NCBI RefSeq assembly: GCF_037975245.1
Contig: NC_092569.1
Coordinates: 16,104,001 to 16,168,000 of the forward strand
Direction of reading: 5' to 3'
Source: Apostichopus japonicus
Taxonomy: Eukaryota; Echinodermata; Holothuroidea; Aspidochirotida; Stichopodidae
Length of the DNA: 64,000 nt
Shown here: positions 33,191-37,400 of the stretch, piece after piece
How the letters are laid out: each line of letters opens with the position of its first letter
Numbering within the stretch: the stretch's first letter is position 1
Notes under the pieces: model-generated
What the model saw: the letters and a program-made list of their open reading frames with translations, nothing else
What the model was told of the DNA's origin: nothing
The model's database searches: none
Position numbers and translations under genes: made by a program

Positions 33191-33412
33191 GCCCGTTCAT
33201 AGATACTTTTCAAGCAAAGTCACACAGGAAAGAACCTGGGCACGAAAAATACGAAACAACCGAACGACTGATCCGCTCTCTAGCCCCAGTCCCCTTGCAT
33301 CGAGACTGGACGTAACTGTGTGATCATCGTCAGATGTGTATCACGATGCCCCTATAGAAGGGGAACATAATGCTATACAAGATCGTAGCTATAAGAGCCG
33401 AGAATAAGCGAT
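33191..33412 (-). repeat. U2 snRNA-headed SINE-like repeat, copy 2
   Basis: Minus strand starts ATCGCTTATTCTCGGC and continues with a more diverged U2-like stretch, then GTGATACACATCTGACGATG and the same tail as copy 1 (CAGTCTCGATGCAAGG, GAGCGGATCAGTCGTTCGG, TTTTCGTGCCCA). It keeps the ATCGCTT start of U2 better than copy 1. It lies between the two annexin genes, in opposite orientation to copy 1. Confidence 0.6.
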
Positions 33413-34296
33413 CCCCTTTCATGTACACCAAAACTTTTTCACTATCAAACTCAATAACAAAACTTCATTCAATGTTACACAAAGCTAAAAATAGAAACTA
33501 CGGATAAATATATCTGCCATGATTGTTTATATTTGTGACAATTAAGCAGCAGTTGTAGTCTTGACTTTTTTATATCAAGAAATTTGAGTAATCCTTCCCA
33601 GGAACCGATGCTATAAAATGTACAAGTAACATATCGATTCCCGGATATGACATTTATGTTGTAACCCCACTGGGCTTGCTCCACTTGAACAAAGGTAAAA
33701 CTATCCTGCTTAACACAGTCGTTCATTAGACCTTATTTTTACTTAGCAAATGTTACAGGGAGGGGTTAAACGCTGCAGATAGGATGTTTTCAACGCAAAC
33801 TACACACGAGTAGATAAGCAAATAAACATAAATATATATTAAAAATAATATATAGAATATATAATATCATATATATATGTATACAAATATATAATATTAT
33901 AACAAAAAATAATGATAGTCGATATGGACTTCCACCACCGTTTTAATCAGGAAATATTTACCTAACTCGAAAACATTTCTCAGATATGGCATGCCCTTTC
34001 GCAGTGGGAAACACTCCTCCCCTCCTTGTACACATACCAGCTTTAACTCTCTCGCTCAACAGCCGCTCACCGCTTACTTACACCCACCAACACAGTGCAC
34101 ACACCAGCACACGCAAAGAAACACCGTATTCAATTAGGTAACATAACTTCATATCACCGGGTGAAGGTTTACGTGTTACAATCTTCTTCAATTATCGACA
34201 ATGTCCATTCAAAACATCCGTACAAATTTAATTTGTTATCTGAGTAATCGCCGTGTGAGTGTGTACACGACTTCCGCATTGAGAGCCCACAAGTGT

Positions 34297-34304
34297 TATA
34301 TATA
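34297..34304 (+). promoter_or_regulatory. Candidate TATA box of annexin B
   Basis: TATATATA followed by CGGTAC, about 160 bases before the ATG at 34465. Tentative because TA repeats are frequent here. Confidence 0.3.
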
Positions 34305-34464
34305 CGGTACTGTAAGGTGTGGTATCTGATTTATAGTATCAAGGGAAAAATCCCAGAACTACTGTCTGCTGTAAACGTATAGGCCTATACAGACTGCCGT
34401 TATATGAACGAAGGAAGTGCTGGTGTTAAGGTTTTTACTCAACAACAATTCTCCGATTAAGAAC

Positions 34465-37400
34465 ATGGCAGCTCCAAAGGTTAGTTTAGTTATTTTATTA
34501 TTATTGTATGTTTTTAAAAACAAAGCGCAAAATAAGTTGGGTTTATGTTGACGGTACATAACATATGCCTACACATTACAGTTGGTGTGCATGTACAGCT
34601 GTCGTCTGGGTGTATGTTTGGTAATGAACATCCAACCGATTGGTGCCCGGTTCGTCTGTGTAGTGTGGGTGCATTTACCGTGCATACGATGTCACATATA
34701 TACCCTCATAAACTACCTGTACATAAACTACACGTTCATATATGCCCGATACACACAGAGAACCGGCACGGGGTGCACGATCTCTGTGCGGCTACTTGGT
34801 TACACGTAGCTTCCATACGTAGTGCTTATAGGAAGTATTATTTTTGTTATTCATGATAAAGCAAGGAATGTGTATTCAGGTAAAATAAGTCAGTTGTCGC
34901 ATCAAAAACACACAAGCACACTTTAAAAAATCACAAATCAGAACGAAAGGTAAGATAGAGAAAACGTTAGTTTAAGGAAGCTTAAATGGACGAAAGTGAA
35001 TATGCAGGAATTACTAAATGAAACTAGGAACTGTGTGGAGTATATAACATAGGCTACGATATCTTAGGGCTCGGCTACAAAACTTTTATATTAAAATGAG
35101 TGCAAAACAGTTAATCATTGTTCAAATAGAGATTTGTTAAAGGTTTACCCTGTATATAAAACTGATAACTCAAAGTCAATATGCTCGGAGTATATAGGAG
35201 TTTTTATATGACTTACAAATTGTCTCCAAAAGCCTCGGGGTGTAGCCAGTGTAAACCCTGGAGGTCATGACATGGATAACATGACTCCCAACCATGACTC
35301 CCAACCATGGGAAATTCTAAACGCATTAACTCAAGTAAAACAGCTTCCCGTATTATTGATATATATATATATATATATATATATATATATATATATATAT
35401 ATATATATATATATATATATATATATATATATATATATATATATATATATATATATATATATATATATATATATATATATATATATATATATATATATAT
35501 ATATATATATATATTTATATTTATATATATATATATATATATATATTTATATATATATATATATTTATATATATATATATATATATATATATATATATAA
35601 GCAGTGTGTTTATGTATATGTATATATACAATATACATATACATAAACACACCGCTTACTATTAAAACAAATAAATATAACATCAGCAGTTAACCCATTG
35701 TGGAAAGCTTTTTGCGTATACACGTATAAGTTCGCCACAGATGCAAATTGTCTTTGCGAAGAAGCCAATATTGAATTCCTATTCGATAGCCAGCTACGTG
35801 GGTGTGGCATATATGTGGATTGTGTAAAATATACCTACATATATTACATGGCATATTTCTAATGTTGAACCAAATGAACTGACAGGTGGTTTACCAAATG
35901 GGAATATATTGTTTACTGATCTCCCAATAGTTAATTTATCATGCATTGCTGGTAGCCTACTAATCGTGAGTTGCACAGATGCGTATGGGATTGTATTTCT
36001 TGGACTAGTAGAGTCTGGGTTGGGTTCTACGAGTATTACGATACACTGAGCTATATGGCTATCTATAGGCTATAGGCTATGCATGCCCGGTTAAATCTGT
36101 TCTCGGCCTCTTGGCTAAGAATATGTGTAGTATCTGTTTCTTTTCGAGGGGAATAGTGATACACACCCGACAATGATCACACCAGGGAGCTGCTACTCTA
36201 GCAGCTCCCTGATCACTCAGTCACAGTCTCGATGCAAGGCAGACTGGGGTTGAGAGCGGATCAGTCGTTCGGTAGTTTGGTTTTCGTGCCCATGTTCTTT
36301 TCTGGGTGACATGTCTTAAAAAAGTATCTGTTGAAGGGTATTACGTTCTAGCGATGTACAATACTTTTCTAAACCAGCTATTAACATGTTGTGTTTATCG
36401 CTGGATTAAATTCACAATTATTGTTTGTTTCCTCTTATAGCCAACAGTAGTTCCACTCCCAGGGTTTGACAAGGACAGCGATGCAGCTGTACTGCGTAAA
36501 GCAATGAAAGGCCTTGGTAAGTGTATAGAAAAGCTGTAAAGATGAGTCCAACGTTTCAAAGAGAGAAGCGATTTCGAGCATTTCCATGTTTAATCATGCG
36601 CCGTTTAAACTGTTCCAAAAGTGTTCCTTTCACACGAACGCCTAGCTCTTAACATTATAATAGACATCATAACACGCATTGATTCAACACCGAGTTGAGC
36701 ATGAATATCCTGACAACCGCCCACGTATATATATTTATATATAGTTATGACCATGCAGCTGCATGGTATGACATTTACTGGTAATACAACGTTCGTTGCT
36801 GTGTGTCTGCCCAAATCAGGGAGTTTCTATATTGACTATAATGTGGACGCTTAAGAAATCGTAACTAGGTCACGCGACGTGGAATATCTTAATCAAGTTG
36901 GCTCGTAGAAGCAAGGTTCTCTCGATGAATTCACGACGGATCGATACACCATATACGATACTAGAACACACCATATGCATTTCAAGGACTTTGTGTATGC
37001 ATAGATCAGTAGCGTACATAGTATCCTTAGCACCGGTGCGGGTCATTTGTCACTCCCTTGCAGGTGATGCCGTCCTGCGGGAAGGGGGGGGGGGGCTCGA
37101 ACATTGTTTTGTTTATTGAAGGTGGCTTAAGATGCAAAATGGTGAAACATTTGGCATATTTTTTAGTAGGTTATGTATATTTGGGGGTGGGGGGGGGGGG
37201 CGCTGGGGCAAACACCCCCTCTTTCCGCATAGTACGCCACTGGCACATATTACCGCTTAGTTCATGTACCTTACATAAGAAAGGTGTTTTTGATTTAGGT
37301 TAACTAACTATTTGCACAGGAAAGTGACATTTACGGTTAAAATTATGAAATTAGTTGAACTTGTAATTGGATCGATGTATCTCGTTGAAGAGTTGTATAC

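Follow-up and report, generated by a model that had tools for sequence, protein, structure and literature searches.

A dispersed repeat family with a U2 snRNA-derived head, very probably a SINE, in the genome of the sea cucumber Apostichopus japonicus

Does the genome of the sea cucumber Apostichopus japonicus carry a mobile element that begins with a piece of U2 snRNA? The question arises from a window of 64,000 nucleotides (the whole stretch of DNA analyzed here; contig NC_092569.1, positions 16,104,001 to 16,168,000 of the forward strand), in which an earlier note had placed two copies of one composite repeat, at 36095 on the plus strand and at 33191 on the minus strand, both starting close to the 5' end of U2 and sharing an unrelated tail. 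Both copies are present and align with each other. Copy 1 (36095..36327, plus strand) is located inside an intron of an annexin-like gene, the exons of which were recognized by eye from the sequence (the 25-aa exon has no Pfam match), and consists of a head derived from U2 nt 1-45 (36095..36139) and of a hairpin, body and tail (36140..36327) that terminate in AAAAAAGTAT at ~36327. This copy also contains a private palindromic insertion of 36 nt (36182..36217, plus strand), which is absent in the other 39 copies of a 40-copy alignment. Copy 2 (33203..33412, minus strand) comprises a diverged U2-derived head (33363..33412) and the hairpin, body and tail (33203..33362). Both copies are old, with 77 and 84% identity to the genome-wide consensus, respectively. 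When the entire 64-kb window was searched, the two matched each other with 81% identity over 137 columns of the body and tail (E 9.5e-26), and with 74% identity over 87 columns on the head side (E 2e-9).

The likeness of the head to U2 is confirmed for copy 1 by the Rfam U2 model, which scores 40.9 bits (E 5.2e-6 for 3.8 kb); this copy is missing from the default-threshold Rfam list because the score falls below the gathering score of 46. Copy 2 gives no U2 match in Rfam even at E<=10, and its head is alignable to that of copy 1 and to the consensus. The branch-point-pairing stretch GTAGTATC, which had been pointed out in copy 1, is indeed intact there and is altered in copy 2. No target-site duplication is recognizable around either window copy (the best scores, 3 and 6, do not exceed the null).

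Several further repeats were observed in the same window. A second dispersed repeat, with copies 92-95% alike, occurs at 11862-12104 and 52506-52656, as well as at another fetched locus (L030:1126-1360); it carries, at 11.9 kb, a B-box-like GAGTTCGAGTCACTCC stretch, ends in ACATAC-rich sequence, and is perhaps a tRNA-type SINE. A near-perfect palindrome adjoining a long TA repeat (35600-35657) shows weak matches to several miRNA families and is probably a simple-repeat hairpin. The window also includes a ~1.1-kb fold-back (57855-58997) whose two inverted arms, 148 and 270 nt long, are 82% complementary, and a tandem repeat with an 85-bp period followed by a G-rich repeat with a period of 80-84 bp (46278-47530).

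The earlier note had proposed that in a genuine mobile family the head-tail junction should be constant over many copies, which should also have target duplications and end at the same 3' position, that its heads should be compared with the species' own U2 gene, and that a total of two copies, or a junction produced by segmental duplication of one U2 pseudogene, would speak against it. We therefore searched the complete assembly (671,581,487 bases in 35 contigs). A DNA search with copy 1 yielded 2,301 first-look candidates, of which 40 were scored. A 29-nt tail pattern with at most two mismatches was found at 2,032 places (1,060 and 972 on the two strands), the first 100 matches listed being on contigs C1-C3, and a 53-nt pattern across the U2 head junction with at most three mismatches was found at 657 places (330 and 327), the 100 among the matches listed being all exact and spread across C1 to C22; both reversed controls gave 0 places. 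Thus the constant junction is borne out on a genome-wide scale, and a family of only two copies is excluded. In the same genome, the COI of the mitochondrial contig C35 translates cleanly with the echinoderm code (AAA=N, AGA=S, TGA=W). Further COI fragments, at C29:14745-31219, represent either nuclear copies of mitochondrial DNA or a remnant of the assembly.

The consensus of the family, built from 19 aligned copies, is 195 nt long and comprises, in order, U2 nt 1-45, the hairpin CCCTTTCGAGGGG, the stretch GATACACACCCGACGATGATC, the body, the CCCAGGTTCTTTCCTGGG hairpin and, at the 3' end, ACTTTT(T)CTTAAAAAGTAT. The shared non-U2 part described in the earlier note is real; its length is ~150 nt rather than ~100. 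The 3' end is fixed as CTTAAAAAGTAT and lacks poly(A). The stretch GATACACACCCGACGATGATC pairs back onto the U2-derived GATCATGTGTAGTATC, a pairing that is predicted to hide the branch-point-recognition GUAGUA. The fold of a young copy (L056) has an energy of -74.4 kcal/mol and a z-score of -3.7; for the head hairpin region alone, the z-scores are -2.5 in L056 and -0.7 in window copy 1. Covariation is nearly absent among 40 aligned copies (2 of 45 predicted pairs), the copies being too alike to inform. In being short, dispersed and present in hundreds to thousands of copies, the unit has the features of a SINE, as does its head derived from a cellular small RNA; a head from U1 or U2 is also what characterizes the SINEU class. 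We conclude with high confidence that a U2-snRNA-headed SINE family is the best explanation of these composite repeats.

The head was compared with the U2 genes of the same species. The Rfam U2 model identified 46 places scored among 40,968 candidates (42 on C16 and four on C15), with the full model covered. Four of these genes were read, two on each contig, and over nt 1-45 they do not differ from the SINE consensus. Among the 19 aligned copies the most frequent base is that of U2 at all 45 head positions, although at nt 1 the A is a plurality rather than a majority (9 of 19 copies). The U2 genes read and the SINE head have in common the heptamer GATCATG, at a position where the U2 of most animals has GATCAAG. 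Beyond nt 45 the sequences part, U2 continuing with TGTTCTTTTCAG and the main SINE form with TGTTCCCTTTCGAGG. A minor junction form, TGTTCTTTTAGGG, present in 2 of 61 distinct head contexts, follows U2 for 4-5 nt further, as does the junction TGTTCTTTTCGAGGG of locus L042. The U2 array itself occupies C16:30.77-31.17 Mb, where 86 promoter-proximal matches occur, many at 645-bp spacing and with several gaps of ~5.6-6 kb; the two C15 U2 genes read are preceded by very different sequence.

The insertion sites were examined in three sets of loci. The tail-picked set consists of the first 30 listed tail places (L031-L060, on C1 and C2), chosen by the exact tail only. These copies are on average 94% identical to the consensus; a start within nt 1-14 is seen in 25 of 30, and some part of U2 is retained in 27. 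A flanking duplication scoring at least 9 was found in 16 of 30 loci, including one in TA repeats (L034) and the near-duplicates L057/L058, compared with 0.23% in re-paired flanks, and 14 loci are without a clear duplication. The head-picked set comprises 40 exact-head copies, about two per contig, from the 100 matches listed; among the 36 that could be scored, 21 have a duplication scoring at least 9 (null 0.57%), although in L101 and L110 the terminal part of a SINE in front contributes to the score. The first set, which was chosen by likeness to copy 1, has 9 such loci of 31 (null 0). The target duplications and the common 3' end named in the earlier note are both observed.

These flanks bear directly on the proposal that a single U2 pseudogene was multiplied, together with its flank, by segmental or tandem duplication. 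In favor of this, flanks are shared within one group of loci (L017, L021, L023, L027, L029, and L030) and in the pairs L048/L049 and L057/L058, and there are two kinds of local array (L061 and L062). However, the family occupies hundreds of places, on C1-C22 among the matches listed, and most fetched copies have unrelated flanks, duplications of their own, variable 5' truncation and one and the same 3' end. For the family as a whole, segmental duplication is refuted by the flanks of the tail-picked and head-picked loci, and we regard it as extremely improbable.

Several loci illustrate how neighboring copies accumulate. A second same-strand SINE at most 40 bp away, mostly within 13 bp, was found in 8 of 40 head-picked loci (in 461-bp windows), in four of the 30 tail-picked loci, two of which represent one and the same pair, and in three of the first 30, in contrast with an average of one tail place per ~330 kb. 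At L061:2146-3439 (C2:21945500-21950500), nine copies with differing 5' truncations stand in a row, separated by TATCCTATCC- or TATCCTATACG-like spacers, the last copies lying within a 272-bp duplication; apparently this row was formed by serial insertion, the duplicated target being re-used each time. Unequal exchange may contribute to such neighboring copies. At L062:1094-2289 (C3:3633500-3637000) there is a tandem array of ~171-bp units corresponding to SINE nt 23-191, that is, a SINE-derived satellite. The copies at L017, L021, L023, L027, L029, and L030 are 5'-truncated near nt 23-34 and, with their shared flanks, represent one copy multiplied within another duplicated repeat.

The 5' ends form a graded series in which nt 1 is the most frequent start: in a pool of 125 elements with an intact 3' end, 39 begin at nt 1 and 76 within nt 1-7, a peak that is partly due to choice, since the pool includes the head-picked copies; in the tail-picked set alone, 9 of 30 start at nt 1. 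The copy at L018 starts at nt 79 and is flanked by a 13-bp duplication, and two copies (L087 and L103) are 5'-inverted. The duplications vary in length (about 9-19 bp) and show no strong target-site consensus, with a mild T/A preference at their first bases only. Target-site duplications combined with 5' truncation are characteristic of SINEs, and together with the two 5' inversions they point to target-primed insertion of the LINE type. A DNA transposon or MITE that captured U2 sequence could account for the internal inverted repeats and for ACTTTTTCTTAAAAAGT, a short palindrome located at the 3' end, but no inverted repeat linking the two ends was seen by eye, the length of the duplications varies, and the 5' truncations are graded against a fixed 3' end; we give this origin next to no credence. 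We infer instead that the U2-headed SINE is moved by LINE-type target-primed reverse transcription. A LINE-encoded reverse transcriptase would act on the SINE RNA in trans, with target-primed synthesis presumably starting at the 3' hairpin and the CTTAAAAAGTAT end.

We searched for a helper LINE that shares this end. A pattern excluding the SINE sequence just upstream of the tail was found at one place, itself a truncated SINE, and the last 18 nt of the unit, searched for outside SINE surroundings, were found at nine places (control 1), of which six were fetched and two proved to be SINE copies; these exclusion patterns, which would miss a diverged LINE or one sharing more of the tail, gave no candidate.

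Transcription is the weakest part of the U2-headed SINE account. Simple patterns detected no A or B box in the unit, and it contains TTTT runs at which Pol III should terminate. No tRNA genes were found in eight loci, and no Rfam families besides U2 in the one copy scanned (L056). In these respects, namely the lack of tRNA in eight loci, of Rfam families other than U2 in one copy and of clear Pol III boxes, the family is unlike SINE2 (tRNA) and SINE3 (5S) elements, which it resembles in size, flanking duplications and the plan of a small-RNA head, body and tail. Nor was a copy found behind a U2 promoter, as judged from the 13-14 nt before the start: the C15-type promoter-proximal sequence has four places in the genome, which are the four C15 U2 genes, and all 86 places of the C16-type sequence, taken as a group rather than read individually, are within the U2 array at C16 30.77-31.17 Mb, so that no SINE was found behind the former, and none behind the latter outside the array. 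When U2 upstream sequence was compared with the 110 bp preceding 40 young copies, no match went below E 0.028.

The confinement of the U2 promoter-proximal sequence to the four C15 U2 genes and the 86 places in the C16 array also argues against a family of functional U2-like non-coding RNA genes that are not mobile. For such genes one may cite the stable fold (z -3.7), the preserved 5' end of U2, and a score above the Rfam U2 threshold in the one young copy tested. The U2 similarity, however, stops at nt 45, Sm-like matches are degenerate only, covariation is limited to 2 of 45 predicted pairs in 40 copies, and flanking duplications and truncated copies are present; an origin as RNA genes is thus hardly credible. 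The score of that young copy (L056:1347-1423; 53.1 bits, above the gathering score of 46) has a practical consequence for the U2-headed SINE family, since snRNA counts for this genome may be inflated by copies listed as U2 genes.

For the origin of the head, we propose that a reverse transcriptase would have jumped from a tail-bearing RNA to U2 RNA at U2 nt ~45-50; alternatively, the two RNAs may have been ligated at this point. A template switch to snRNA has been proposed, in the accessible text of PMC13174262, for snRNA/LINE-1 chimeras (U6/L1, U1-U5/L1), which are similar to the unit described here in having an snRNA 5' of a retrotransposed sequence. By analogy, such chimeras supply a plausible way to make a U2 head. 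Since LINE-1 chimeras of this sort are known (PMC13174262, in its accessible text), and since locus L003 contains a second partial U2 piece ahead of a complete unit and within its flanking duplication (one clear case), it could be argued that the repeats are repeated U2/LINE chimeras formed by template switching rather than a self-copying family. However, 657 places have a near-constant junction at U2 nt 45-50 followed by the same hairpin, and the copies have diagnostic variants in common and the same body every time, which makes recurrent formation very unlikely. The LINE-1 chimeras are single events, whereas in A. japonicus the chimera became a multiplying SINE family with subfamilies.

An older subfamily provides a view of the head's history. 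Six old SINE copies were observed in the fetched loci, most with a different tail, and a pattern for this tail was found at 12 places in the genome, all with 2-3 mismatches. Two of the 12 fetched copies align clearly to U2 (L125 to nt 22-49, E 9e-6; L123 to nt 25-50, E 1e-3), three align weakly (L126, L128, and L130; E 0.5-1.2), and the remaining seven show no U2 alignment. Since a U2-like head is seen in five of 12 copies, in two of them clearly, the head probably predates the present form of the SINE, as far as these alignments can tell. The majority sequence of nine aligned copies (L120, L121, and L131 were left out) reads GTGTAGTA.CTATTCCCTTT where U2 has GTGTAGTATCTGTTC. A further idea is that the head has been renewed, active lineages regaining the current U2 5' end of the host by an end-of-synthesis switch onto U2 RNA. 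Such renewal would account for the match of 45 nt to present-day U2, for the additional U2 piece of L003 and for the variety of junctions, and the SINE would then always begin at U2 nt 1 and need no promoter of its own in the head. The young consensus and the old majority agree in 18 of 23 comparable head columns and in 110 of 131 columns outside the head, figures that speak neither for nor against renewal, which we consider a speculative and rather unlikely scenario.

An association of retrotransposons with U2 has also been described for the Utopia and YURE LINEs and for U2_sat, and Utopia, which inserts into U2 genes, is reported from echinoderms too (PMC4640811, in the portion available). 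The family described here does not qualify as a Utopia-type U2-targeted LINE: its insertions are dispersed, and U2 is within the mobile unit, of which it forms the 5' part. Among other sources, the available parts of PMC5753468 and PMC4455052 name the SINEU class, those of PMC8010984 cite SINEs headed by snRNA and 28S for avian, crocodilian and mammalian genomes as one group, and those of the Daphnia paper PMC11963560 use the label SINE_U. We found no U2-headed SINE outside crocodilians in the literature listings and paper passages searched, other database entries being possible.

The suggestion that a marine invertebrate hosts a U2-headed SINE very probably holds, the host being an echinoderm. 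To our knowledge, snRNA-headed SINEs are a rare class known from crocodilians only. The crocodilian SINEU described by Kojima in 2015 reportedly has a head derived from U1 or U2 snRNA joined to an unrelated body, is said to have undergone recurrent snRNA addition at the 5' end, and reportedly depends on a Tx1-Mar LINE as its helper, with an insertion preference for Mariner-N4. The sea cucumber family is similar in its snRNA head (U2 here, U1 or U2 in SINEU) and unrelated body, and differs in host phylum; this likeness is based on the description of SINEU and not on body or 3'-end sequences. A further U2 piece in front was seen once (L003), and junction variants belong to a minor subfamily. Because the SINE head matches the species' own U2, GATCATG included, the sea cucumber family is probably independent of SINEU, and shared descent is unlikely. 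A U2-headed SINE family outside crocodilians is likely new and undescribed.

The published annotation of the A. japonicus assembly lists 159,644 bp of SINEs in all (PMC10344927, in the part available), which is less than the ~0.39 Mb estimated for the U2-headed family if its 2,032 copies were full-length, the true figure being lower because many are truncated. A thriving echinoderm family would mean that the class of snRNA-headed SINEs arose at least twice, and it makes testable how an snRNA fragment with a normally external promoter founds a self-multiplying element.
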